Origin: Natronosalvus vescus
GTDB taxonomy: Archaea > Halobacteriota > Halobacteria > Halobacteriales > Natrialbaceae
Length of the DNA: 64,000 bases
NCBI RefSeq assembly: GCF_023973145.1
Contig: NZ_CP099546.1
Location: 2,914,001-2,978,000, forward strand
Reading direction: 5' to 3'
Shown piece after piece: positions 28,790 to 64,000 of this stretch. The translations under genes were made by a program, and so were the position numbers. The notes under the pieces were generated by a model. It made no database searches, was not told the DNA's origin, and worked only from the letters and a program-made list of their open reading frames with translations. Numbering within the stretch: the first letter of the stretch is position 1; every line of letters starts with the position of its first letter.

Positions 28790-30070
28790 TTAATCAGATA
28801 CTCCCACCCGACCATCGGCCTGATAGCCTCGAACGGTCGGGTGGGTCACGGTCGGGCTGTCCACAAGCCCCGATGCCTGCCGTCGCACCTTCCGAACTTG
28901 GGGAAGGCTGTTGAGAGCAGGCACATTCCAACTCATACACTTCTCGATACCTTTCACGGCGATATTGACGCTTGCACCACGGTCACTGTGGTCTTGATGA
29001 CTACAAGACTTGCACTTGAATCGCTTCTTCCGCCGATTCGCCCGTTCAGCGTGCCCACACAACGGGCACCGCTGGCTCGTCTTGTACGGGTCAATCGAAT
29101 CCGAGGGGATTCCCTCGAACGCAGCCTTGTACGACGTATAGAACTGGAGAGCGCGAAACGGCAAGTGGTGCAAGCGTCGGTTCATCCGCGTGCCGTAGTC
29201 GATACTGTCGCGCATCTCTTTGAGGTCTTCAAAGACGATGCACGGCTTCTCGAACCGCTGGCTCCACTCCACGATGTGACGGCTCACCTTGTGGAGTCGG
29301 TCACGGACGAACCGTTCCTCGCGCCCTTCCAGCGTGTCGTGGATGCTGTCCTTCCCCGCGTTCTGGACGCGCTTCCTCATCGTGAAATAGCGGTGGCGCT
29401 CGAACTTGATTTCGGGGAAGTCGATAACCAACGTATCCTCGACACCATTCTCGGAGAGTGCAGTGAGAGCCACGTTGTCCTCGTTCACATCGACACCGAT
29501 AACCGTCCGAGAGTCCTGCTTGTCTCGCACAGTACGTTCGGTGTTGCGAATATTGACGTGGAGTTCCGGTTCTCCCTCGCGCCACAGGGCTTCACTGGTC
29601 GTGACTTTCCACTCATCGCTCGTTAGTGCGTTCTTGAGCAAATCAAGGTGGGAGTCACTACCCTTGAGGATACCTTTGACGTGGTTGTAGGGTTTCGCAC
29701 TGATGCGAAACGCCACTTCGTCCTCATCGGTGAGCGAGAGGTTGTAGCCTTCTTCGTAGTTGGCTCGAAGTGGGTACGCGCCACCTTTGGTGTGGCTGGG
29801 AATGTTGTAGTCGTCGTAGTCGTAGTAATTCTCCATCGCTTCCAAGGCCTTGGCGACGATGCGTTGAGTCGTGTTCTTGATGAGGTCGGCCTCGTCTTCG
29901 AGACGAGGAGAAATGTCGTCCCAGTCCACGCCGTTTTTGGCAAGGCGGATGGTTTCGTTGTACACCCAGCGGGCTTCGAGGGTGGCGTCTTTGAGCAGAC
30001 TCTCGTTGTCACTCTGGATGTCGAGTTGGAAGTCCAGCGTCTTCACGAGAGTCGGCTCTTCGGTTGTCAT
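28790..30070 (-). CDS. tnpB: TnpB RNA-guided nuclease of IS200/IS605
   Basis: 426 residues. The RuvC-like active site is complete: Asp in TVIGVDVNEDNVAL (about 192), Glu in CIVFEDLKEMRD (about 281) and Asp in HSDRGASVNIA (about 368). A four-Cys zinc finger lies between the last two (CPLCG...CKSC). In this family the protein, with an RNA from the element's end, cuts DNA lacking the element and so favours its retention. It starts with ATG overlapping the DUF2080 stop (ATGA). The length is normal. Confidence 0.93.
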   Translation of the reverse strand: MTTEEPTLVKTLDFQLDIQSDNESLLKDATLEARWVYNETIRLAKNGVDWDDISPRLEDEADLIKNTTQRIVAKALEAMENYYDYDDYNIPSHTKGGAYPLRANYEEGYNLSLTDEDEVAFRISAKPYNHVKGILKGSDSHLDLLKNALTSDEWKVTTSEALWREGEPELHVNIRNTERTVRDKQDSRTVIGVDVNEDNVALTALSENGVEDTLVIDFPEIKFERHRYFTMRKRVQNAGKDSIHDTLEGREERFVRDRLHKVSRHIVEWSQRFEKPCIVFEDLKEMRDSIDYGTRMNRRLHHLPFRALQFYTSYKAAFEGIPSDSIDPYKTSQRCPLCGHAERANRRKKRFKCKSCSHQDHSDRGASVNIAVKGIEKCMSWNVPALNSLPQVRKVRRQASGLVDSPTVTHPTVRGYQADGRVGVSD

Positions 30071-30222
30071 TCTTTGTCTTGTTCAGTGGGTTCTGAGGTG
30101 CGAACGACTTTCACGTCCGCGCCACGCCAGCGTTTTGGGACGGTGACGTGGGCGCTGTTCCCGAACGGTTTGACCTCTCCGTCGAGAACTTCTTCGCCGT
30201 CGATTTCAAAGCGATTCGCCAT
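30067..30222 (-). CDS. DUF2080 family transposase-associated protein
   Basis: A 51-residue protein beginning MANRFEIDGEEVLDGEVKPF and containing GNSAHVTVPKRWRGADVKVV, an AbrB/SpoVT-like swapped-hairpin pattern typical of DUF2080 proteins linked to haloarchaeal IS elements. Its stop overlaps the tnpB start by four bases, so the two are translated together. It is divergent from tnpA. It might bind the element's own promoter region (inference). Confidence 0.8.
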   Translation of the reverse strand: MANRFEIDGEEVLDGEVKPFGNSAHVTVPKRWRGADVKVVRTSEPTEQDKE

Positions 30223-30264
30223 ACCAGTGTATATACTTAAGTGTATCGGTGTGGTGTGTCAACT

Positions 30265-30663
30265 ATGGAGGAGAAACGGTCAAATCACACGGTGTACAAC
30301 GCCAACTATCACTTCGTGTGGTGTCCGAAGTACCGCCACGCGATACTGGAGCCAATCGAGGATTCGTTGGATGAGTGTTTTCAGAAGGTATGCGATGAGT
30401 ACGGCTATGACCTACAATCGTTGCACATATCTCCTGACCACGTACACGTGTTCCTGTCCGCGCATCCGAAACACGCGCCGAGCGAGATTGTACGGACAAT
30501 TAAGAGCATCACAGCGCGAGAGATGTGGGAGCAACACGAACCGTTTCTGGAACAGTATTTGTGGGGTGGTGGATTCTGGGAACAGTCATACTATGTCGGG
30601 ACGGCAGGCATAGTGTCGAGCGAGACGATTGAACAGTATATTGAACGAACGGAACACGTTTAG
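30265..30663 (+). CDS. tnpA: IS200/IS605 HUH transposase TnpA (Y1)
   Basis: A 132-residue single-strand transposase. The HUH motif is PDHVHVFLSAHP (about 60-71), and the catalytic Tyr is expected in SSETIEQYIER near the C-terminus. The opening HTVYNANYHFVWCPKYRH is the classical family start. ATG 30265 was chosen over the GTG at 30241, because the eight extra residues are not conserved. It forms a dimer that excises and inserts the element as single-stranded DNA. Confidence 0.93.
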   Translation: MEEKRSNHTVYNANYHFVWCPKYRHAILEPIEDSLDECFQKVCDEYGYDLQSLHISPDHVHVFLSAHPKHAPSEIVRTIKSITAREMWEQHEPFLEQYLWGGGFWEQSYYVGTAGIVSSETIEQYIERTEHV

Positions 30664-34935: not shown

Positions 34936-35077
34936 CGAACGCGGCCTCTCGTCGATCCCGGACGCGTGCTCTACTGAAGACGGCGATCCTGGATCGACAG
35001 GTCACGCCGATATCGGTTCCCGACCGTCAAGAGCGTGACGGCTGAAGCGAGATCACGGTCTTACACCGTCTCAACCA

Positions 35078-35097
35078 GTATACAGAAATCGTTTTTG
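35078..35097. promoter_or_regulatory. shared dyad operator, site 1 (aminotransferase A)
   Basis: GTATACAGAAATCGTTTTTG: the left half and centre match the site at 45804-45824 (CAGAAATCGT is identical), while the right half is weak. It lies 20-40 bases upstream of a TATA-like AAATTATTT (about 35118), which is itself about 27 bases before the ATG at 35152. That position suits an activator. Confidence 0.55.
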
Positions 35098-35151
35098 AAG
35101 ATACGAATACTGTTGACAAATTATTTGTGACTGGTTCACATCGTGTTGCAC

Positions 35152-36534
35152 ATGGGCGCCGAACCACCGATCGAGGAACTCCATTTCGCAGATGCACCGT
35201 CAGTCGACGCGGTTCCTGGGCCGAAGTCGCGCACACTGCTCGAGAAACAACGCGAGATCGACAGTAGCGCCGTCGCGTATCCGAACGACATCCCGCTGGC
35301 GTTCGAGGCGGGGAAGGGGGCGACGATCAGGGACGTCGACGGAAACACCTACATCGATATGTTCGCAGGGATCGGCGTCCTCAACGTCGGACACGCGAAC
35401 CCGTACGTCGTCGACGCGATCCACGACCAGATGGACAAACTCGTCCACACGGTCGACTTCCCGACCGAGGCGCGCCTCGACCTCATCGAGAAACTCGACG
35501 AAATCGCTCCGGGCTCGCTCGCCGGGAACAATCGCGTCGTCTTCGGCGGCCCCACGGGGAGCGACGCCATCGAGGCGTCGATCAAACTCGCGAAGTTCAA
35601 CACCGACGGCGACGGGCTGATCGCCTTCCGCGGGGGCTACCACGGCCCAACGAGCGGGGCGATGAGCCTCACCTCGAACACGAAATTCAAGGGCCACTAC
35701 ACGCCGTTGCTTCCGGACGTCGTTCACGCGCCGTACCCCTACCCGTTCGCCCAGGGAAAGAGCCCGGACGATGCCACGAAGGACGCCCTCGAGGAGGTTC
35801 GAGCCATCGTCGAAGACCCCTACAGCGGCCTCGCGAATCCGGCCGGGATCTTCGTCGAGCCGATTCAGGGCGAAGGCGGCGTCGTCGTCCCGCCGGCAGG
35901 GTTCCTCGAGGGCCTCAGGGAGATCGCCGACGACAACTCACTGCCGCTGATCTTCGACGAGATCCAGAGCGGGATTGGACGCACGGGCGAGTGGTTCGCC
36001 GCGGATCACTTCGACGTGACGCCCGACGCGATGACGATGGCGAAAGCCCTCGGCGGGAACGGTCTCCCGCTCTCGGCGACGATGTACCGCGAGGAACTCG
36101 ACACCTGGGGACCGGGCGATCACGCAGGCACCTACCGCGGACACGTCACGGCGATGGTCGGCGGCACTCGTGCGATCGAGTACATCCAGGCCCACGATCT
36201 GCTCGCCCACGCCCGCGACCTCGGTGCGCACATTCGCGCCCGGTTGGAGGAAGTCGCCGAGACGACCCCCGTGCTTGGCGAGGTACGCGGCAAGGGGCTG
36301 TTCATCGGGGCCGAATTCGTCCACGAAGATGGGAGTCCCGCCGACAACGTCGTGGGTTCGATCCAGCAGTACTGTTACGAACACGGCGTGCTGGTGTGGA
36401 CGGCCGGCCGGTACGGGAGCGTCCTCCGACTTCTGCCACCACTCGTACTAACGCGCGAGCTGGCCGACGTTGCCCTCGAGGTGATCGCCGACGGCATCGA
36501 GCACGCAGCCGCCGAAGCGTCGCCATCACGCTAA
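35152..36534 (+). CDS. class III aminotransferase, diaminobutyrate/GABA-type (A)
   Basis: A 460-residue PLP aminotransferase. PLP contacts are [16 protein letters not shown] (about 135-150) and FRGGYHG. The catalytic Lys is in [18 protein letters not shown] (about 300), and Asp in [14 protein letters not shown] binds the ring nitrogen. The [10 protein letters not shown] form resembles diaminobutyrate-2-oxoglutarate aminotransferases (EctB/Dat/DoeD group, from memory). In the context of a DoeA-like hydrolase it is the better candidate for turning L-2,4-diaminobutyrate into aspartate semialdehyde. The ATG at 35152 fits a leaderless start; GTG 35143 is the alternative. An upstream dyad links it to the rest of the cluster. 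Confidence 0.85.
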
Positions 36535-37112
36535 CGGTGTTGGCCGCTCTCGAGATGGGATCGGCTCCTCTCGAGGTGGCGGATACGAGGGCGGTAACCG
36601 TCGGTCAGTTCGCTGAATGCGCCCTCGAGCGAGATTCTGTCATATTTGACTTTCGTAACCAGCATATACAATAATTGATGAGCGTTTTTCGTTGTACGGA
36701 GTCCGTACGTTCGTATTAGGATACGGTGAACCGATGGCGGGCGGTGACTTCGTGAATCAGTAAACCGCGGCTATTGGCTCTACTCGTCGTGTCGCGTGCG
36801 TCTCTCGAGCGCGGCATCTGGTAGCCGTCATCCGATTCTGCTTGTGACGACGTGGATATCGATTCGTTCTCACAGTAATTGTATACAAATTCTGTATATC
36901 ACGACAACGATTACAGAAAGTCTTAATAACCAATCCGTGGATGTGGTGTTTGGTGGTACCACACACCATGGTATTTGATACATCGATTCGAGACGGTTGC
37001 GGGGGGATAGATCGAAAGAAAAGCCAGTGGTGGGGCTGCAGTGCGTCGGGTGATCGCCACCAGAAGTGGACGTTTTTCGATCCACTGGTTTCGGTACTGA
37101 GAGGTGAGGATC
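36535..37112. other. intergenic, long leader and promoter of the BCCT gene
   Basis: No gene. The part 36840-36990 is AT-rich and carries the dyad at 36881 and a TATA-like CTTAATAACC near 36921. If transcription starts after it, the BCCT message has a leader of about 160 bases. A ribosome site GAGGTGA lies at 37101-37107, unusual in this mostly leaderless neighbourhood. Confidence 0.5.
36881..36900. promoter_or_regulatory. shared dyad operator, site 2 (BCCT transporter)
   Basis: GTATACAAATTCTGTATATC is a good inverted repeat (GTATACA / TGTATAT). It lies about 20 bases upstream of the TATA-like CTTAATAACC, the geometry of an activator site. Confidence 0.65.
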
Positions 37113-38765
37113 ATGGCTGACGGCGGCGACCTCGGCGCTGTCGGGCGGTTCCGCGAGGAAATCGATCCGATCGTGTTCATCTTCGGTACGCTCCTGACGG
37201 TCGGTGTCATCGCGATGTTCTTCTTCAGCCGGAGCACCCTGGCCTGGGCTATCGGCGATCCCGAGACCGCCCAAGAGGGGGTTCTTAACACGTTCTTCCT
37301 CGAGTACCTCAACTGGGCGCTGCTGGTGATCGTGTTCCTGGTCGTCGTCTTCCTCCTGTTCCTGATACTAGGGCCGTGGGGGAAGCTCAAATTCGGGGAC
37401 GATCCGCCGGAGTACAGCTTCCTGTCGTTTTTCGCGATGTTGTACTCCGCTGGCTTCGCCGCGGGCGTCGTGTTCTGGGGCCCGACGGAAGCGCTGTTTT
37501 ACTACGACAATCCGTCGCCACTGTTCGACGTGTCGAGTCAATCGGGTGAGGCGATGCCGATCGCCATACAACAGACGCTCTTCCACTGGGCGTTGCCCCA
37601 GCTAGCCGTCTTCACGATCATGGGGATCGCGATCGGCTACTTCGCGTACAACTACGAGAACGTGCCACTTCGTGTGTCGTCGGCGCTCACGCCGATTCTC
37701 GGGCGCGACAACCTCGACGGCCCGGCTGCGAAGGCCATCGACATCCTCGCGGTCTTCGCGACCATCGGCGGCGTGGCGACCTCGCTCGGCTTCATCGGCA
37801 GCCAGTTCGTCACCGGACTCGACTACCAGTGGGGTATAGACCTGGGAGACACAGGCATCCTCCTCGTAGTCACGGCGATGACGCTCCTGTTTACGATTTC
37901 GATGGTTCTGGGGGTCAACCGCGGGATCAGGCGACTCTCGAACTTCAATATGGTGTTGTTCGTGATCCTCCTCCTGGCGACCTTCATCGTGGGGCCGACG
38001 ATCTTCCTCGTCCTGGTCGGTACGCAGGCCCTCAGCGGAATGGTCACGAATTTCGTCTCTATGAGCCTCTACACCGGTGCGGGGGCGGAGGGCGGAACCC
38101 AGTGGGTGAACGACTGGACCGTCTTCTACTGGGCGTGGGCCCTCTCGTGGTCGCCGTTCGCGGGGCTGTTCATCGCGCGCATCTCCCGGGGTCGAACGGT
38201 ACGGGAGGTCGCGTTCACGGGCATCGTCGCGACCTCGGCGGCGACGATTCCGTGGTTCATTTCACTGGGCGGTACCGCGCTGTATGCACAACACAACGAG
38301 ATCGCCGACTTCAGCGGCGTCATGGCGTTCGAGCAGGGCGCCGAGGTCACTGGCTTCATCCTGTTCGATGCGTTCCCACTCGGGACGGTGTTCATGATCG
38401 CGTTCATGTTACTCGTGACGACGTTCTTCATCACGTCCGCGGACTCCTCGACGCTCGCGGTGTCGATGATGACGACCGGTGGGAAGGCGAGACCGTCGAA
38501 CATCAACCGAATCTTCTGGGGAGTCGTCCTCGGGATGACCGCAGCGATCCTCATGATTCAGGGTGGTGTCGACGCGCTCCAGTCCGCCGCAATCGTCACC
38601 GGCGGGCCGTTCGCGTTCGTCTGCTTCCTCGCCATGCTCGGGCTGATCAAACACTTCAGCACGAAGTACGGCCGCGTCCTGCTTCAGGAGGACACCGTGT
38701 TGATCGGCTCCTCCGAGGACAAACCGGCTGTCGGCGGTGCGGCACAGGCAGGAGACGACGACTGA
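37113..38765 (+). CDS. BCCT family compatible-solute transporter
   Basis: A 550-residue secondary transporter with twelve hydrophobic segments. The family signature is in NDWTVFYWAWALSWSPFAGL followed by FIARISRGRTVREV (about 335-368), with the tryptophans that line the binding site. The Gly-rich segment IGGVATSLGFIGSQF is also typical. It imports betaine, ectoine, carnitine or similar solutes with Na+ or H+. ATG 37113 has the ribosome site GAGGTGA in front. The upstream dyad places it in the same regulon as the aminotransferases and the DoeA-like hydrolase, so its substrate is probably what they degrade. Confidence 0.93.
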   Translation: MADGGDLGAVGRFREEIDPIVFIFGTLLTVGVIAMFFFSRSTLAWAIGDPETAQEGVLNTFFLEYLNWALLVIVFLVVVFLLFLILGPWGKLKFGDDPPEYSFLSFFAMLYSAGFAAGVVFWGPTEALFYYDNPSPLFDVSSQSGEAMPIAIQQTLFHWALPQLAVFTIMGIAIGYFAYNYENVPLRVSSALTPILGRDNLDGPAAKAIDILAVFATIGGVATSLGFIGSQFVTGLDYQWGIDLGDTGILLVVTAMTLLFTISMVLGVNRGIRRLSNFNMVLFVILLLATFIVGPTIFLVLVGTQALSGMVTNFVSMSLYTGAGAEGGTQWVNDWTVFYWAWALSWSPFAGLFIARISRGRTVREVAFTGIVATSAATIPWFISLGGTALYAQHNEIADFSGVMAFEQGAEVTGFILFDAFPLGTVFMIAFMLLVTTFFITSADSSTLAVSMMTTGGKARPSNINRIFWGVVLGMTAAILMIQGGVDALQSAAIVTGGPFAFVCFLAMLGLIKHFSTKYGRVLLQEDTVLIGSSEDKPAVGGAAQAGDDD

Positions 38766-38892
38766 GAGGGAACGTCGTACCACCATACCGCCGTTTGCCG
38801 CTATCGAGTGGGAAAACGGTGGTACGTGATTACAACGATCCCTCCGACCCACTCCCCTCGCTTACGGGGTTTCGCAACCGTTATTGATCGCC

Positions 38893-38912
38893 GTATACAG
38901 TTTTTGTGTATG
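38893..38912. promoter_or_regulatory. shared dyad operator, site 3, overlapping a start codon
   Basis: GTATACAGTTTTTGTGTATG: its last three bases are the ATG of the gene at 38910. A TATA-like GTTATTGAT lies just upstream. A protein bound here would cover the start of a leaderless transcript, so this is a repressor-type position. Confidence 0.65.
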
Positions 38913-39560
38913 ACTACGGACGACGAAATGGACGAGTTGAAGGGCCTCGCGTACGACCCAGACCGAGAGCGAGGGATCCTCACGCCCAGCGATCGGGAGT
39001 TCCTGCTCGGCCGTAAAACGGACTACACCGATCACTCGAAGAAACAGAAACGCAACCGGATTCGCCGACGAATACGGAACGCCATCCTCGATTTCTCCAT
39101 CATCTTCGACCACCTCGACGACCGCGACCGTGAAACGGTGTTCGACCCCGAAGACGAGGAGCGAGACGCCTACACGCAGGGCATCGTCGACATGCTCGCA
39201 CTCCTCCACCTCGGTACGATGGGCTACTCGACGCCGTTCAAGGACATGCTCTCACAGGGGGTCTACAAGGCCGAACAGGAACTCGCCGGCTCCGACTACC
39301 GCATGGTGAACGTCTACTTCAACGTCGATCCCGTCGGTCAGATCGACGTCGATGAGGTCATCGACAAACTCGAGCGTGGTCGCTTCAACGAGCTCACCGA
39401 CGAGGAGTTGCGGGCGTTCGTGCGATTGCTCGCGGAATCGTCGGAGTTCTCGCCCGATCCGATGCGCGAGGAGATCAAAGACCAGATGGACGAGTTCGCC
39501 GAGCGGGCCACCCAGGCAGCCCTCCAGCGCGAACAGCGCATCGAGGATCTCATCGATTGA
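38910..39560 (+). CDS. haloarchaeal conserved protein of unknown function in the solute cluster
   Basis: A 216-residue, highly charged, mainly helical protein. A basic segment (KKQKRNRIRRRIRNAILDFSIIFDHL, about 45-70) follows ILTPSDREFLLGR; this opening is shared by a group of haloarchaeal proteins known to me only as hypothetical. The C-terminus (150-216) is an acidic helical region (DEVIDKLERGRFNELTDEELRAFVRLL). The basic helices could bind DNA or RNA, but no standard HTH is evident. ATG 38910 lies inside a cluster dyad, which suggests tight, possibly self-imposed control. It is the only non-enzyme, non-transporter of the block and hence a candidate regulator or sensor (inference). Confidence 0.7.
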   Translation: MTTDDEMDELKGLAYDPDRERGILTPSDREFLLGRKTDYTDHSKKQKRNRIRRRIRNAILDFSIIFDHLDDRDRETVFDPEDEERDAYTQGIVDMLALLHLGTMGYSTPFKDMLSQGVYKAEQELAGSDYRMVNVYFNVDPVGQIDVDEVIDKLERGRFNELTDEELRAFVRLLAESSEFSPDPMREEIKDQMDEFAERATQAALQREQRIEDLID

Positions 39561-39599
39561 GCGGTGGAGTCAACGGGAGCCGACTGACTCTCGAGCAAT

Positions 39600-39678
39600 G
39601 TCGACGAATGTTGAGCACAGTCAACGAATACTGACAGAGTCGACGAATACTGAGGAGAGTCAACGATTTTCGAGCGGC
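39600..39678. repeat. four imperfect 19-20-bp tandem units
   Basis: GTC(G/A)ACGA starts at 39600, 39620, 39639 and 39659, each followed by a similar ATACTGA/TTTTCGA half. A fifth partial copy (GTCAACG) is at 39569. The array lies in the gap between the unknown gene and the amidohydrolase stop. Confidence 0.55.
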
Positions 39679-39756
39679 TCGACGCGAGAATCGAGCGACG
39701 GATCCCGTCGTAATCGGTGCCGAATCGGGGGGTAAAATGTCGGACGCACCGACCGG

Positions 39757-41067
39757 TTACGGTCGTTCGACCTCGAGTCGACGAACCGACTCGACGAGTA
39801 CGTCGACAGCGATCTCGAGGCTGCGCTCGTCGACGTCGAAATGAGGTGTGTGGTGGCTGTCCGGGTGATCGGTGCCGACGATTAGATAGGACGCGAGTCC
39901 GCCCTCATCCTGGACGCGCCGCATGAGGAACGTCGCGTCCTCGCTCGCCCCGAAATCCGCGGTTCGTACCGTGTCGTCAACGCCGTCCGTTTCGCCGGCC
40001 ACGTCGTACACCAGGTCGACCAGTTCGTCGTCGCTGTCGGCCCGCGGCGACTCGCTGACGACGTCGAACTCGAGGTCACAGCCGTGCATGGCGGCGGCGG
40101 ACTCGAACGTGCGACGGAGTTCGCCTTTCACGTACTCCATCAGGGCGGTGGTCTCGCCACGAACCTCGGCCACGACGTCAGCTCGTTCGGCGATGATGTT
40201 GCTCGCGGTTCCCGCCTCGACGCGACCCACATTTACCCGCGTCATGCCGCCGCTGTGTCGCGGGATGCCGTAGGCGTTCTGTACCGCCGTGGCCATCGCC
40301 TGGATCGCATTGTGCCCCTCGTTCGGCGCTTTTCCGGCGTGGGCGGATCGTCCGCGGATAGTCGCGTCGATGTGGCTCATCGCCAGCGGTTTGACGATGC
40401 CCGCGACGACCTTCCCCGTCGGATGGTCGAGGCCGACGTGGACGGCGAGGAGGTACTCGAGTCCCTCAGCGTAGGGGCCGTCGGCCATTGGCTTCCCGCC
40501 GCCAGCTTCCTCCTCGGCCGGCTGGAAGAAGACGGTGAACGTGCCGTCGAAATCGCTCTCGAGCACCGCCTCGAGGGTCGCCAGCCCGATCGTCATGTGA
40601 GCATCGTGTCCGCACGCGTGCATCAGTCCCTCGTGCTCCGACCGGAATCCCTCAACCGCGGGCTCGTGGTCGTCGTCGCTCGCCTCCTCGACGAACAGGC
40701 CGTCGATGTCGACCCGGAGCCCGATCGACGGCCCGTCGCCCCGACGCACCCTGGCGACGACGCCGGTGTAACCGCCCTCCGTCGCCTCGAGCACGTCCTG
40801 ACGCGCCCCGCGTTCGCGAGCGCGATCGAACCACGTCTCGAGATCGTCGTCGTTCGGAACCGCCATCCGTTCGTCTGGATCCATCGCCTCCGGTCCGACG
40901 ACAATCTCGTCGATCCCGCCCGTCCCGGCCTCCTCGCTGCGGGCGTCTATCGCCTCGAGTTCGTCGACGAGCAGGCTGGTGGTGTAGAACTCCCGCCAGC
41001 CCGGTTCGGGGTACCGGTGGAACGTTCGCCTGACGTCGCCCAATCTGTCGCGAACCGTTCGGGTCAT
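39757..41067 (-). CDS. M20 amidohydrolase, candidate N-acetyl-diaminobutyrate deacetylase
   Basis: A 436-residue dinuclear zinc hydrolase of the M20D/AbgB-like branch. Landmarks are HRYPEPGWREFYTT at the N-terminus, the metal site HACGHDAHMTIG (about 150), FFQPAEEEAGGGKPM with the catalytic Glu, the dimer-domain motif GRSAHAGKAPNEGHNA, and a late His in DHPDSHHTPHFDVDE. The family removes acyl groups from amino acids. Beside a DoeA-like ectoine hydrolase, the likely reaction is N-acetyl-L-2,4-diaminobutyrate to diaminobutyrate plus acetate (the DoeB2 role). It is divergent from the 2-hydroxyacid dehydrogenase, with dyads in the gap. Other acyl-amino acids remain possible. Confidence 0.8.
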   Translation of the reverse strand: MTRTVRDRLGDVRRTFHRYPEPGWREFYTTSLLVDELEAIDARSEEAGTGGIDEIVVGPEAMDPDERMAVPNDDDLETWFDRARERGARQDVLEATEGGYTGVVARVRRGDGPSIGLRVDIDGLFVEEASDDDHEPAVEGFRSEHEGLMHACGHDAHMTIGLATLEAVLESDFDGTFTVFFQPAEEEAGGGKPMADGPYAEGLEYLLAVHVGLDHPTGKVVAGIVKPLAMSHIDATIRGRSAHAGKAPNEGHNAIQAMATAVQNAYGIPRHSGGMTRVNVGRVEAGTASNIIAERADVVAEVRGETTALMEYVKGELRRTFESAAAMHGCDLEFDVVSESPRADSDDELVDLVYDVAGETDGVDDTVRTADFGASEDATFLMRRVQDEGGLASYLIVGTDHPDSHHTPHFDVDERSLEIAVDVLVESVRRLEVERP

Positions 41068-41102
41068 CTCGATCGATACCTACCCCGTGCTCGCACTTAA
41101 TG

Positions 41103-41145
41103 GTACACAGATTTCGTTGAAGGCGGATACACACATTTTATTTTT
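41103..41145. promoter_or_regulatory. two shared dyad operators, sites 4 and 5, in a divergent promoter
   Basis: Site 4 (GTACACAGATTTCGTTGA, 41103-41120) abuts a TATA-like CATTAAGTG facing the amidohydrolase. Site 5 (GATACACACATTTTATTTTT, 41126-41145) overlaps the TATA-like ATTTTATT facing the dehydrogenase. Both match the cluster motif mainly in one half (TACACA), so they are weaker than the other sites. Confidence 0.45.
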
Positions 41146-41166
41146 CGTACCCGCGTGACGGCACCT

Positions 41167-42141
41167 ATGACCGATGCTCGTCAGGACGTCGTCGTCCTCC
41201 GCGAAGGAACCGAGGGGCTCGCGACGGAACCGTACGCCGATCTCCTGCGCGACCGACTCCCGAGCTACGACGTCAGACACGCGCCGACGCCGCAAGCCGA
41301 ACGCACGCTCGTCGAACGGGCACCGATCGTCACGGGCGTCCGCATCGACGAGGCGCTCCTCGAGCGCGCCGCGGAACTCGAGCTCTTCGCCTGTGCGTTC
41401 GCCGGTACGGAACACCTTCCGATGGACGCGCTCGAGGATCGCGGCGTGATTGTGACCAATGCCGGGGGCATCCACGCGCCCGGCATCGCCGAACAGGCGC
41501 TCGGGAACATGCTGGTGTTCGCCCGACGGCTCCACGAGGGGTGGCGGCGGAAGCGAAACCGCGAGTGGCGTCACTTCCAGTCGTTCGAGCTGACGGGGTC
41601 GACGGTCACGGTCGTCGGCCTCGGCTCGATCGGCACCGAACTGGTGACCCGACTCGAGGGGTTTTCCGTCGAGACGATCGGCGTCAGGTACAGTCCGGAG
41701 AAGGGTGGGCCGACGGACGAGGTCATCGGCTTCGACGACGATGCCATCCACGACGCGCTCGCTCGAACCGACTACCTCGTGATCGCCTGCCCGCTTACGG
41801 AGACGACCCGCGGCCTCATCGGCTCCGAGGCGTTCGCGACGCTCCCGCCACACGCTGTCCTCGTCAACACCGCTCGAGGCCCGATCGTCGACACCGACGC
41901 GCTGGTGTCGGCGATTCAGACCAACGGCATTCGCGGGGCGGCACTCGACGTCACCGATCCCGAACCGCTTCCTCCCGACCATCCGCTGTGGGACTTCGAG
42001 AACGTTCTCATCACGCCACACACCGGTGGTCACACCCCGAAACACTGGAACCGACTAGCCGACATCGTCGCGAGAAACGTCGAGGTACTCGAGGAGACGG
42101 GATCCGCGAACGATCTCGAGAACGTGGTGTTTGCGCCCTGA
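41167..42141 (+). CDS. D-2-hydroxyacid dehydrogenase
   Basis: A 324-residue NAD(P)-dependent enzyme. The dinucleotide fold has VTVVGLGSIGTEL (about 158-170). Catalytic residues are Arg in VLVNTARGPIVD, Glu in DVTDPEPLP and His in LITPHTGGHTP. It interconverts 2-keto and D-2-hydroxy acids; the precise acid is unknown. It starts with ATG 41167, preferred over GTG 41155. It is followed after 82 bases by the EamA transporter on the same strand. In this cluster it may deal with a keto acid from transamination, or with hydroxyectoine-derived carbon (inference). Confidence 0.88.
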   Translation: MTDARQDVVVLREGTEGLATEPYADLLRDRLPSYDVRHAPTPQAERTLVERAPIVTGVRIDEALLERAAELELFACAFAGTEHLPMDALEDRGVIVTNAGGIHAPGIAEQALGNMLVFARRLHEGWRRKRNREWRHFQSFELTGSTVTVVGLGSIGTELVTRLEGFSVETIGVRYSPEKGGPTDEVIGFDDDAIHDALARTDYLVIACPLTETTRGLIGSEAFATLPPHAVLVNTARGPIVDTDALVSAIQTNGIRGAALDVTDPEPLPPDHPLWDFENVLITPHTGGHTPKHWNRLADIVARNVEVLEETGSANDLENVVFAP

Positions 42142-42223
42142 ACCGGTCGATTTCGTCGGTGGCGTTGCTGCCGACCCTGGGCCGAGAGCAGAGGCGAAAG
42201 CAGCGACACCGCTCGAGTGACCC

Positions 42224-43138
42224 ATGATTCCCGAACTCCCACAACCGATCCTCGGGATCCTCCTCGCGAGCCTCGCGGCGATCATGTGGGCGATCCAGTA
42301 CCTGTGCGTTCGCGTCGGAACGGATGATGGTGACGTTCTCTCGGCCGTTATCGTCACCATCGCGGTCAATCTCGCGTTGCTCGCTCCGGCTGTCCTCGTC
42401 GTCTACCCGCGGCCGTACTCGGGACTGTTCACCCCGCTCTCTCTCGTCGCGTTTACCGCCGCGGGACTCGTCGGCACGCTCCTCGCCCGACTCCTCATGT
42501 ACAAGAGCATCGAAACGATCGGGGCGAGTCGAACCTCGCCCGTGATCGCCGCGAACGTCTTCTTCGCGACCGTCCTCGCGGTGGTCTTCCTCGAGGAGTC
42601 CCTCACGTTCGTGCACGTCGTCGGCATCGTCCTCATCGTCGGCGGGGTCGCCGTCATCTCCTGGGATACCGCGTCGTCAGAACCCGATCAGTCCCTTCGG
42701 GAACTCGGCCTCTCGCTGTTGCTCCCCGTGGTGGCCGCTGCGGCGATCGGCATCGAACCGATCTTCGTCTCAATCGGTCTCGAGGAGGGGACGCCCGCCA
42801 TCCCCGGTGTGCTGGCCATGACTGCCGCCGGTGGAATCGGGTTCGTTGGCTACCTCCTGTGGCGACGACAGCCCGTTCAACTATCGGTGCGGAGCCCCTC
42901 GACCGCTTGGTACGTCGCCGCAGGCGTCTCGAGTGCGATCGGTCTCGTCACGTACTTCGCGGCGCTCGAGGTCGCCCCCGTCGTGATCGTCGTTCCCCTG
43001 TTGCAAACGACGCCGTTGCTCGTCGTCGTCCTCTCCGCGCTGTTTCTCCCGCAGCGTCTCGAGCGGGTCACGCTACTCACGGTGGTCGCTGCGCTCGTCG
43101 TCGTGGGTGGGGCGATTCTGGTGTCGGTTTCGGGGTGA
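42224..43138 (+). CDS. EamA/DMT family transporter
   Basis: A 304-residue membrane protein made of two five-span EamA repeats. The first is about residues 5-140 (SLAAIMWAIQYLCVRVG at the start, the YKSIETIGASRTSPVIAANVFFATVLAVVFLEE signature at its end). The second is about 155-300 (YFAALEVAPVVIVVPLLQTTPLLVVVLSALFLPQ). Such proteins move amino acids or metabolites, often outwards. It is probably co-transcribed with the hydroxyacid dehydrogenase. Confidence 0.88.
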   Translation: MIPELPQPILGILLASLAAIMWAIQYLCVRVGTDDGDVLSAVIVTIAVNLALLAPAVLVVYPRPYSGLFTPLSLVAFTAAGLVGTLLARLLMYKSIETIGASRTSPVIAANVFFATVLAVVFLEESLTFVHVVGIVLIVGGVAVISWDTASSEPDQSLRELGLSLLLPVVAAAAIGIEPIFVSIGLEEGTPAIPGVLAMTAAGGIGFVGYLLWRRQPVQLSVRSPSTAWYVAAGVSSAIGLVTYFAALEVAPVVIVVPLLQTTPLLVVVLSALFLPQRLERVTLLTVVAALVVVGGAILVSVSG

Positions 43139-43198
43139 CGCGGTTTCGTGAAGACGGTATGTCGAGGTGACGCTGCACACCGCCGCCAGGTTCCGCGA

Positions 43199-44377
43199 TC
43201 AGACCGAGAACAGTTCCTGCGGGAACGATGAGAACCGCTCCGCACCCGTACTCGTCACCCGGAACGACTCGCTGATCTCGACGCCGAACTCGTCGAACCA
43301 GATGCCGGGAATCATGTGGAAGGTCATGTTCTCCTCGAGCACCGTCTCGTCGCCGGGGCGGAGGCTGGCCGTGTGCTCGCCCCAGTCCGGCGGGTAGCCA
43401 CACCCCATCGAGTAGCCGATGCGCGATTCCTTCTCGATGCCGTGTTCGGCGATGGTCTCCCGCCAGGCCCGTTCGACTGCCTCGCAGGTGACGCCCGGTT
43501 TGGCGGTATCGAGGGCGGCGTTCAGACCCTCGACGACGACGTCGGCCACGCGCTGCATCTCGTCGGGCACGTTGCCGACGACGGCCGTCCGGGCCAACGG
43601 CGAGTGATAGCGGTGTCGACAGCCTGAGAGTTCGATGATGACGGGATCGCCTGCCCGGAATGGATCGTCCGACCACGTCAGGTGGGGCGTCCCCGTGTGG
43701 TCTCCGGAGGGCATCAACGGAACGATGGCGGGGTAGTCCCCACCCATTCCGTCCACGCCGTCGATCAGCGTGTGATAAATTTCGGCCGCGACGGTCGACT
43801 CGGGGACGCCTTCCTCGAGCGCGTCCAGCCCCGCTTGCATCGCCGCGTCAGACAGTTCGACCGCCTGCTCGATGTACTCGAGTTCTTGGTCTGATTTCAC
43901 GATGCGTACCTCGTTCACCAGGAGCGTCGCGTCGTCGAACGACGCCCCGGGGAGGTTCTGTTGCAGTCGCTCGTGGGAGTGAGCGGTGTAGTAGTAGGCG
44001 TCCATCTCGACGCCGATGGCGGTTCGATCGAGCTCCATCTCCTCGAGGACGGTCGCCACGTAGTCCATCGGGTGTTTGCCGACGGGCGACTGGACGTGAT
44101 CGTCGCTGTAGGATCTGATGTGCTCGTGGTCGATCCAGACCGTCGCTTTCGCCCCGTTGGCGTCCATCTCGCGACCGATCCACACCGGCTGGTCGTGATC
44201 GAGTGAGACGACGACGCCCTGGTGGACGTAGAACGACCAGCCGTCGTAGCCGGTGAGGTAGTTCATGTTGGCCGGGTCGGTGACGAACAGCGTCTCGAGA
44301 CCTGCTTCTCGCATTCGCTCTTTGGTTCGGTCGACTCGCCGTTCGTACTCCGCTCGCTCGAATGGTGTGGCTGTCAT
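43199..44377 (-). CDS. doeA: M24-family ectoine hydrolase (DoeA-like)
   Basis: A 392-residue protein of the creatinase/aminopeptidase-P fold. Compared from memory with Halomonas DoeA it shares NMNYLTGYDGWSFYVHQ, DANGAK, HPMDYVATVL, GVEMDAYYYTA, GGDYPAIVPLMPSG and GCGYPPDWGEHTASLRPGD. The metal-binding Asp positions of ordinary M24 peptidases are replaced (CRHRYHSPLART in place of the usual GYxSDxTRT), as in DoeA and creatinase. The reaction is opening of the ectoine ring to N-acetyl-L-2,4-diaminobutyrate. ATG 44377 was preferred over TTG 44383. It has its own dyad upstream and lies downstream of aminotransferase B on the same strand. The main alternative is another creatinase-like amidinohydrolase. 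Confidence 0.82.
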   Translation of the reverse strand: MTATPFERAEYERRVDRTKERMREAGLETLFVTDPANMNYLTGYDGWSFYVHQGVVVSLDHDQPVWIGREMDANGAKATVWIDHEHIRSYSDDHVQSPVGKHPMDYVATVLEEMELDRTAIGVEMDAYYYTAHSHERLQQNLPGASFDDATLLVNEVRIVKSDQELEYIEQAVELSDAAMQAGLDALEEGVPESTVAAEIYHTLIDGVDGMGGDYPAIVPLMPSGDHTGTPHLTWSDDPFRAGDPVIIELSGCRHRYHSPLARTAVVGNVPDEMQRVADVVVEGLNAALDTAKPGVTCEAVERAWRETIAEHGIEKESRIGYSMGCGYPPDWGEHTASLRPGDETVLEENMTFHMIPGIWFDEFGVEISESFRVTSTGAERFSSFPQELFSV

Positions 44378-44431
44378 TCTCAATCAATCCGACGAACGAT
44401 GCGCTCTCGCTTAATCTTTTTCGTGTTCGCC

Positions 44432-44450
44432 GTATACGGAATGTGTATAT
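44432..44450. promoter_or_regulatory. shared dyad operator, site 6 (DoeA-like gene)
   Basis: GTATACGGAATGTGTATAT is a clear inverted repeat, about 15-20 bases upstream of a TATA-like AGATTAAGCG (minus strand) that precedes the DoeA-like start. It lies in the 85-base gap between aminotransferase B and the hydrolase, so the hydrolase can be transcribed on its own. Confidence 0.65.
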
Positions 44451-44462
44451 TTGGCCAGCGGA

Positions 44463-45806
44463 TTAGGCGGTCGCGTCGATCGACTCGAGTAACAGGTCGG
44501 CACCGAGGTCGATCTCGCGTTCGGTCACGTCGAGCGGCGGCAACAGCCTGATCGCCTTCTCGCCACAGCCGAGCGTCAGCAGGCCTCGAGCGACGGCCTC
44601 CTCGACGACGGCGGTTCGACGCTCGGTGGTGTCGAACTCCACGGCGAGCATGAGTCCGCGTCCGCGCACGTCGATCACACCGTCGGGCTCCGCGTCGCGC
44701 AACCGTTCTTTCATGTGGGCACCGCGAACGACTGCGTTCGCACACAGGTCGTACTCTCGAATCGCGTCGATCGTCAATGCTCCCTGTAACGCCGAGAGGA
44801 TGTCGCCCCCACCCCACGTCGATCCGATGCGGTTCTTTTCGGTGGGGAAGACTTCCGAGCGCGAGATGGTCGCGCCGGTTCGAAGCGCCTTCCCGCCGGC
44901 GATGACGTCCGGTTCGATCGCGTAGTGATCCGAGGCCCACAGCTTTCCCGTTCGTCCAAGTCCGGACTGGATTTCGTCGGCGATCAGGTGAATGTCGTAG
45001 GTCTCACAGACCCTCGCTACCTCGTCCATGAACGCCTCACTCGGGAAGTTGTAGCCGCCGACGCCCTGGATCGGCTCGAGGATCAGGAACGAAATCTCCG
45101 ACGGATCGATGTAGCCCCCTTCGGGCTCGAGGAGCCGTCCCAGCTGTGAGTCACCGCCGGCGAAAAAGCCACAGGAGCACGTCTCCTGGCTACAGTTTCG
45201 ATCCTCACAGAACGGTACCGTTCTCGTTCCTGCGATTTCGGGATACGAACGGGTGTAGACGGACTTGGCTCGAGTCATCGAGAGCGTCCCAACAGTCCGG
45301 CCGTGGAACGCGCCGACGAACGTGATGCCGTACTTCGGCGATTGGGTGTTCGCGTTGGCGATCTTCATCGCGTTTTCGACCGCCTCGGCGCCGCTGTTAC
45401 AGAGAAACACTGTGTCCATGTCGTAGTGGGCGGTGATCTCGACCAGCCGATCCATGAGCTGGCTCGGTCCGGGGTGGGCCGGATCCGTCGGCGACGTACC
45501 GGCACCGACGTAGAAGTCCTGGCCGGCGATCTTCATCGGATCGCCGAGTTCGAACTCGGCCATCGGCTCGAGAATTTTGGGATTGTCGTACCCGAGGGGT
45601 GCAGCGCCGATGTGGCACGTAAAGTCCATGAGGACGTTTCCGTCGACATCGGTACAGAACGGCCCCGCTGCCGGTGCGGTTCGATCCCAGACGAACTCGT
45701 GGGAGTATTCACTTGGGGCGGCGCTCCGGTGGTGGTACTCGATCCACGACTGGGCCGCCTCGCCCGGGACGGTACGAACCGACGGCTCCGCGGTATCCCG
45801 ATCCAT
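44463..45806 (-). CDS. class III aminotransferase (B) with a Cys cluster
   Basis: A 447-residue PLP enzyme like 4-aminobutyrate/lysine aminotransferases. Key regions are FLCNSGAEAVENAMKIAN, FVGAFHGRTVGTLSMT, Asp in HLIADEIQSGLGRTG, the PLP Lys in VIAGGKALRTGATIS and GSTWGGGD. Residues 197-210 form an unusual Cys run (FCEDRNCSQETCSCGFF) that could bind a metal. It is in the same direction as the DoeA-like gene. Its ATG lies inside a perfect cluster dyad. The substrate is probably an omega-amino acid such as diaminobutyrate or GABA. Confidence 0.88.
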   Translation of the reverse strand: MDRDTAEPSVRTVPGEAAQSWIEYHHRSAAPSEYSHEFVWDRTAPAAGPFCTDVDGNVLMDFTCHIGAAPLGYDNPKILEPMAEFELGDPMKIAGQDFYVGAGTSPTDPAHPGPSQLMDRLVEITAHYDMDTVFLCNSGAEAVENAMKIANANTQSPKYGITFVGAFHGRTVGTLSMTRAKSVYTRSYPEIAGTRTVPFCEDRNCSQETCSCGFFAGGDSQLGRLLEPEGGYIDPSEISFLILEPIQGVGGYNFPSEAFMDEVARVCETYDIHLIADEIQSGLGRTGKLWASDHYAIEPDVIAGGKALRTGATISRSEVFPTEKNRIGSTWGGGDILSALQGALTIDAIREYDLCANAVVRGAHMKERLRDAEPDGVIDVRGRGLMLAVEFDTTERRTAVVEEAVARGLLTLGCGEKAIRLLPPLDVTEREIDLGADLLLESIDATA

Positions 45807-45824
45807 ACACAGAAATCGTGTATG
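45804..45824. promoter_or_regulatory. shared dyad operator, site 7, overlapping a start codon
   Basis: This is the best copy: CATACAC at 45804 and its exact complement GTGTATG at 45818 flank a 7-base centre (AGAAATC). On the minus strand the end GTGTATG contains the aminotransferase B start codon. TTTAATAAC, a TATA-like box, lies about 27 bases upstream of the ATG. The site therefore covers the transcription start. Confidence 0.75.

Positions 45825-54422: not shown

Positions 54423-64000
<9,578 letters not shown>

Follow-up and report, generated by a model that had tools for sequence, protein, structure and literature searches.

A candidate regulator outside known protein families and its putative operators at the promoters of a probable ectoine-catabolism cluster in haloarchaea

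The window, that is, the whole 64,000-nucleotide stretch of DNA analysed here, belongs to a haloarchaeal genome represented by a single contig of 3.84 Mb, and a gene cluster spans its 35.1–45.8 kb region. The cluster comprises a class III aminotransferase (AT1; 35152..36534, plus strand; PF00202) near diaminobutyrate transaminases, which matches TIGR00709 at 339 bits, under the cutoff; a BCCT transporter (37113..38765, plus strand; PF02028); a 216-amino-acid protein outside known families, termed REG (38910..39560, plus strand), which is proposed below to be a DNA-binding regulator; a DoeB2-like M20 amidohydrolase (39757..41067, minus strand), which scores over the cutoff for TIGR01891 and under that for NF038260; a D-2-hydroxyacid dehydrogenase (HDH; 41167..42141, plus strand; PF02826); an EamA transporter (42224..43138, plus strand; PF00892); a DoeA/EutD-like M24 hydrolase (43199..44377, minus strand), whose best match is still TIGR02993 at 461.6 bits against a cutoff of 613; and a second class III aminotransferase (AT2; 44463..45806, minus strand; PF00202). 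Two further genes occur in orthologous loci: one encodes a Rid-family protein, the other a PLP-dependent dehydratase that matches EutB among other NCBIfam models and threonine ammonia-lyase best of all. Putative ectoine catabolism clusters containing EutD, an aminopeptidase, an aminotransferase and a BCCT transporter have been reported in Halobacteria and are termed provisional in the available text of that paper (PMC13188858, 2026); the present cluster shares with them a EutD/DoeA-like gene accompanied by genes for an aminopeptidase, an aminotransferase and a BCCT transporter, a combination conserved among Halobacteria. Because of this gene content and these published clusters, the substrate is probably ectoine, and the locus is treated here as a putative ectoine-catabolism cluster. 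Elsewhere in the window, an IS200/IS605-like element, judged by its translations, occupies 28790-30663, with a TnpB-like ORF (28790-30070, minus strand) divergent from a TnpA-like ORF (30241-30663, plus strand).

An earlier note on this DNA had reported seven copies of a dyad motif, each next to the start of a cluster gene, and all seven places were confirmed; in register, the 21-bp dyads start at 35077, 36880, 38892, 41102, 41126, 44431 and 45804. When scored against the pattern YRTAYAC-N7-GTRTAYR, four are strong (36880, 38892, 44431 and 45804), one is weak (35077) and two are degenerate (41102 and 41126). Both dyads without a mismatch lie on start codons: CGTATACAGTTTTTGTGTATG (38892..38912, plus strand) lies on that of REG, its last three bases being the ATG, and CATACACAGAAATCGTGTATG (45804..45824) on that of AT2. 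The dyad upstream of BCCT (36880..36900; one mismatch) overlaps a weaker dyad (36867-36887; three mismatches), which is displaced by 13 bp and shares the half TGTATACA. This half is self-complementary, and overlaps with the same 13-bp step (36867-36900 in the window) recur at AT1 in other genera; such overlaps suggest arrays of three half-sites. Upstream of DoeA, a dyad with one mismatch (44431..44451) precedes, on the minus strand, ACACGAAAAAGATTAAG, a half-site abutting the BRE/TATA region; this arrangement also occurs in orthologues. The dyad upstream of AT1 (35077..35097) carries three mismatches. The divergent M20 and HDH promoters have in common a degenerate dyad of which only the left half is intact (41102..41122), and a second, tandem half-dyad (41126..41146), 24 bp from the first, lies on the HDH TATA-like box; these two were counted by hand at approximately four and five mismatches, respectively. 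Orthologues carry dyads with zero to two mismatches at the M20/HDH position and share an HDH module in which the dyad is followed by TACACAAAAAGG and then by TATA. The pair in the window would count only as worn remnants of a tandem that is better kept in these orthologues.

Conservation upstream of orthologues, which the earlier note had proposed as a check on the motif, was found in the form of fixed offsets across 57 haloarchaeal loci (1.03 Mb in total) that were fetched with REG as the query. Gene order differs among the genera, and REG remains with the cluster, the exception being a locus (L041) that contains REG and one DoeA only. Within these loci, 50 of the 51 perfect dyads are located within 300 bp of the start of a cluster gene. 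At AT2, all 33 distinct orthologous dyads end with the ATG; at REG genes that have a promoter to themselves, the dyad takes the same position as in the window and ends on the ATG in nearly all cases, and REG genes that are the second gene of an M20-REG pair are without a strong dyad of their own. At M20, the dyad ends 31 bp before the gene in 19 of 23 cases, and at AT1, where orthologous dyads mostly occupy -76 to -56, it ends 55 bp before the gene in 18 of 28.

A chance or base-composition origin of the dyads was weighed against these data and has a negligible probability. A loose pattern, allowing three mismatches, occurs 45 times in the window where 27 occurrences are expected, which speaks for such an origin, but sites with at most one mismatch number five against 0.18 expected, and none of 100 shuffles reached five; the fifth of these sites, at 61561, is out of line with the refined consensus and can probably be put down to chance. 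That consensus, YRTAYACA-NWWWN-TGTRTAYR, was derived from 61 distinct orthologous sites and was used in place of the loose 7-N7-7 pattern, which has 180 matches in the genome. A scan of the 3.84-Mb genome with it, the other check proposed earlier, identified one site with no mismatch, two with one and three with two, and the best matches are concentrated in the cluster: it holds four of the six, including all three with zero or one mismatch. The ORFs at the two outside sites (155219 and 2482907, two mismatches each) include no obvious catabolic gene. A chance origin is thus refuted by the conservation in orthologues, the strict window scan and the genome scan. From their sequence and distribution, the dyads are, close to certainly, operators of one local regulon, and this regulon looks like a single-locus one.

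Two classes of promoter can be distinguished. At AT2 and REG, a TATA-like sequence (TTTTAAT or CTTAAT) is followed by a dyad lying over the expected start site and the ATG. The dyads of BCCT, AT1, DoeA, HDH and M20 precede the TATA box, by some 20 bp in the case of BCCT and AT1, and HDH, BCCT and DoeA have an extra half-site (e.g., TACACAAAAAGG) 22–24 bp further on, touching the BRE/TATA region; EamA, which follows HDH in the window, is without a dyad. The earlier note had assigned five sites to positions on a TATA-like box or just ahead of one, and two to the start codons of leaderless-looking genes; this division is correct and is kept in orthologues. The position of a dyad on the ATG of two genes might indicate that the dyads work in RNA, as hairpins or translation-start elements. 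This role was rejected as highly improbable, since the TATA spacing implies leaderless transcripts in which most of the dyad would be untranscribed, and the remaining sites lie upstream of TATA.

REG is the sole regulator-like gene common to every locus. Its presence was compared with that of the AT2 dyad in 146 genomes of the class, with REG orthologues defined by an E-value below 1e-60. REG orthologues were identified in 47 of these genomes and AT2 homologues (E <= 1e-120) in 120, of which 73 are REG-less. The AT2-start dyad pattern occurs in 41 genomes, all of which have REG, and direct reading of the remaining six genomes with REG revealed a dyad at AT2 with zero to two mismatches; the exact pattern was found in none of the 73 REG-less genomes with AT2, and direct reading of 16 of these (L149 and L151-L165) revealed no dyad at AT2. 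Second AT2 copies in three genomes with REG (L166-L168) are also without the dyad. A Fisher test of 41/47 versus 0/73 gave 5e-26, a figure that overstates independence because the genomes are related. When further congeners are added, three with REG and one REG-less genome that was likewise read directly, the AT2 dyad is present in 50 of 50 genomes with REG versus 0 of 74 REG-less genomes with AT2; the four genomes of the window's own genus that have REG all carry it. Two REG-less congeners, G045 and G148, keep AT2, DoeA, EamA, HDH, M20 and BCCT (about 70% identity for EamA and 83–90% for the others), and the AT2 start has four mismatches in both. In G045, BCCT (84%) and M20-HDH (80%) align on either side of the missing REG, with no remnant of the gene between them; G045 and G148 may share one REG loss.

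REG is proposed to bind the dyads because they are absent wherever REG is absent and lie at fixed promoter places, including its own start codon. We regard it as likely that REG, a member of an unnamed haloarchaeal transcription-factor family on this reading of the sequences, is the binder of the cluster dyads. The single factor marking the cluster promoters that the earlier note had envisaged is supported by the conservation in orthologues, the genome-wide scan and this presence/absence comparison. The dyads might instead be bound by an unlinked transcription factor of haloarchaea, for example of the IclR, Lrp or TrmB type, with REG as a co-regulated target or effector partner, and an IclR gene does occur nearby, in only 11 of the loci. 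This alternative is unlikely, as lack of the AT2 dyad coincides exactly with absence of REG, also inside a genus in which the rest of the cluster is intact. The co-occurrence data are also compatible with REG only modifying another DNA binder, as it may do. An element at the EamA start of both REG-less congeners also counts against REG as the binder: it amounts to a dyad with two mismatches in the same leaderless geometry. In L149 and L193, it reads CATCTCC-GAAGACC-GTGTATG on the EamA start codon.

The unlinked factor gains some plausibility from the REG protein, which is without a recognised DNA-binding domain. REG had no informative match in Pfam, NCBIfam, PDB or PHROGs: no PDB sequence matched below an E-value of 0.66, no match of weight to GntR or another helix-turn-helix (HTH) was obtained in Pfam or NCBIfam, the HTH_IclR and IclR_C domains of Pfam are absent, and its 216 residues contain no match to an aminotransferase-like domain. 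The Lrp, TrmB, ArsR, MarR and PadR Pfam domains were found in none of 24 REG-family members. Pfam matches of single members to RPN13_C, Phage_int_SAM_4 and BtrH_N, and a weak match of one member to PHROG 26393, of unknown function, were taken as noise or uninformative. An AlphaFold2 model of REG, computed with 38 close orthologues, reached a pLDDT of 42 and was unusable. Alignments of the family define an N-terminal block, DRxRGxLTPxDRxxLxG plus RIRxR...DF, which REG possesses, and the conserved N-terminal part of REG contains a basic stretch (residues 41-56, net charge +8) in a protein whose overall net charge is -21. The earlier note had seen no obvious DNA-binding protein in the cluster; this stands insofar as no known domain is present, but the best candidate lies inside the cluster: it is REG, encoded from 38910 and with a dyad on its start codon. 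All REG relatives found are haloarchaeal, and none was found in viral contigs or phage records. Orthologues of REG are often present on large haloarchaeal plasmids (plasmid records H1-H14), where they are labelled as hypothetical proteins, and cluster genes adjoin REG in the two plasmid records that were opened; the location on large plasmids is consistent with horizontal spread. One family member (L106:2583-3719) has 379 amino acids and a long C-terminal extension, as compared with the usual length of approximately 210.

Haloarchaeal paralogues of REG are many and mostly 27–45% identical, and family members occur in 41 of 58 sampled haloarchaeal genera. The paralogue in the genome of the window is flanked, as judged by translations, by genes for an MMPL-type exporter and a valyl-tRNA-synthetase-like protein, lies away from ectoine genes, and has a dyad of its own, TATAATC-CATTTCT-GATTATG, which ends on its own ATG (G000:C1:2271227-2271247, in L173). 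The pattern TATAATC-N7-GATTATG has a single perfect match in the 3.84 Mb, and the dyad is retained throughout this paralogue's subfamily, which is itself conserved in the family; another subfamily has CATAATC/GAGTATG-like arms. The starts of paralogues were surveyed for 7-N7-7 dyads that end on the ATG and have at least 5/7 arm identity, with spacers varied from 3 to 12. At spacer 7, this identity was reached by 21 of 56 paralogues, as opposed to 10 of 443 control starts, and at each of the other spacers by at most three. In most of the 25 paralogue clusters, namely the distant ones, no clear ATG-anchored dyad was found, and the ATG-ending dyad, present in REG and the closer subfamilies, may define only part of the family. 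A constant geometry combined with differing arms would be the trace expected of a family of autoregulators with diverged specificity, and the occurrence of differing dyads at the starts of paralogues without ectoine genes around them argues further against an unlinked factor.

If REG is the binder, it would recognise YRTAYACA-N5-TGTRTAYR as a symmetric oligomer, presumably a dimer. At REG and AT2, the operators would lie just downstream of TATA and cover the expected start site together with the ATG of a leaderless gene. REG bound there should prevent the promoter from opening or RNA polymerase from loading; the geometry makes autorepression and repression of AT2 the likely outcome. In archaeal local autorepressors, an operator downstream of TATA provides steric repression, and REG resembles these in that its operator would cover both the start site and the ATG of a leaderless gene. 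It differs from them in that no HTH, RHH or other listed domain was detected in it, and in that the last three bases of the operator of REG and its close relatives are the ATG. At the promoters of the upstream class (BCCT, AT1, DoeA, HDH and M20), REG would more probably recruit or stabilise TFB/TBP; activation at these sites is narrowly favoured over repression by occlusion. REG might instead act as a pure repressor that occludes BRE/TATA via the second half-site, a sub-case that overlaps the main explanation and to which we give a real, though clearly less than even, chance. The abutment of this half-site on BRE/TATA fits such a role, but these promoters have their stronger dyad upstream of TATA, where archaeal activators usually bind, at a distance of some 20 bp in BCCT and AT1. 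Bacterial ectoine catabolism is under the control of a repressor, EnuR, which is encoded with ectoine uptake and catabolic genes and controls them (PMC5924519), and this also speaks for pure repression. As to the dual activator/repressor in the earlier note, its two classes of site are real, and activation at the upstream class is what we infer from their position. The ligand of REG is presumed to be an ectoine-pathway metabolite.

EnuR, a MocR/GabR-type protein of the GntR superfamily, is like REG in that its gene sits with those of the ectoine pathway; it combines a winged helix with a PLP-binding aminotransferase-like domain, whereas REG has 216 amino acids and neither of these. The available text on the haloarchaeal clusters (PMC13188858) names neither a regulator nor an operator for the archaeal clusters, unlike the proposal made here, and no description of an archaeal ectoine regulator was found in the open-licence literature. 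The broadest form of the proposal is put forward tentatively, at slightly less than even probability: REG would found a haloarchaea-specific family of sequence-specific transcription factors whose DNA-binding domain differs from those in Pfam, closer members would have an operator of their own on the start codon of their gene, so that specificities could be read from genomes directly, and REG would repress and activate within one pathway according to site position. If the proposal is true, a regulator of haloarchaeal ectoine-type catabolism would be named and made testable, and an unannotated family of regulators, present in the majority of the haloarchaeal genera sampled, would be identified. 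Because the site of a close member lies on the ATG of its own gene, genomes could then be mined for matching proteins and operators, which would give access to the recognition code and the fold of a possibly new DNA-binding domain.
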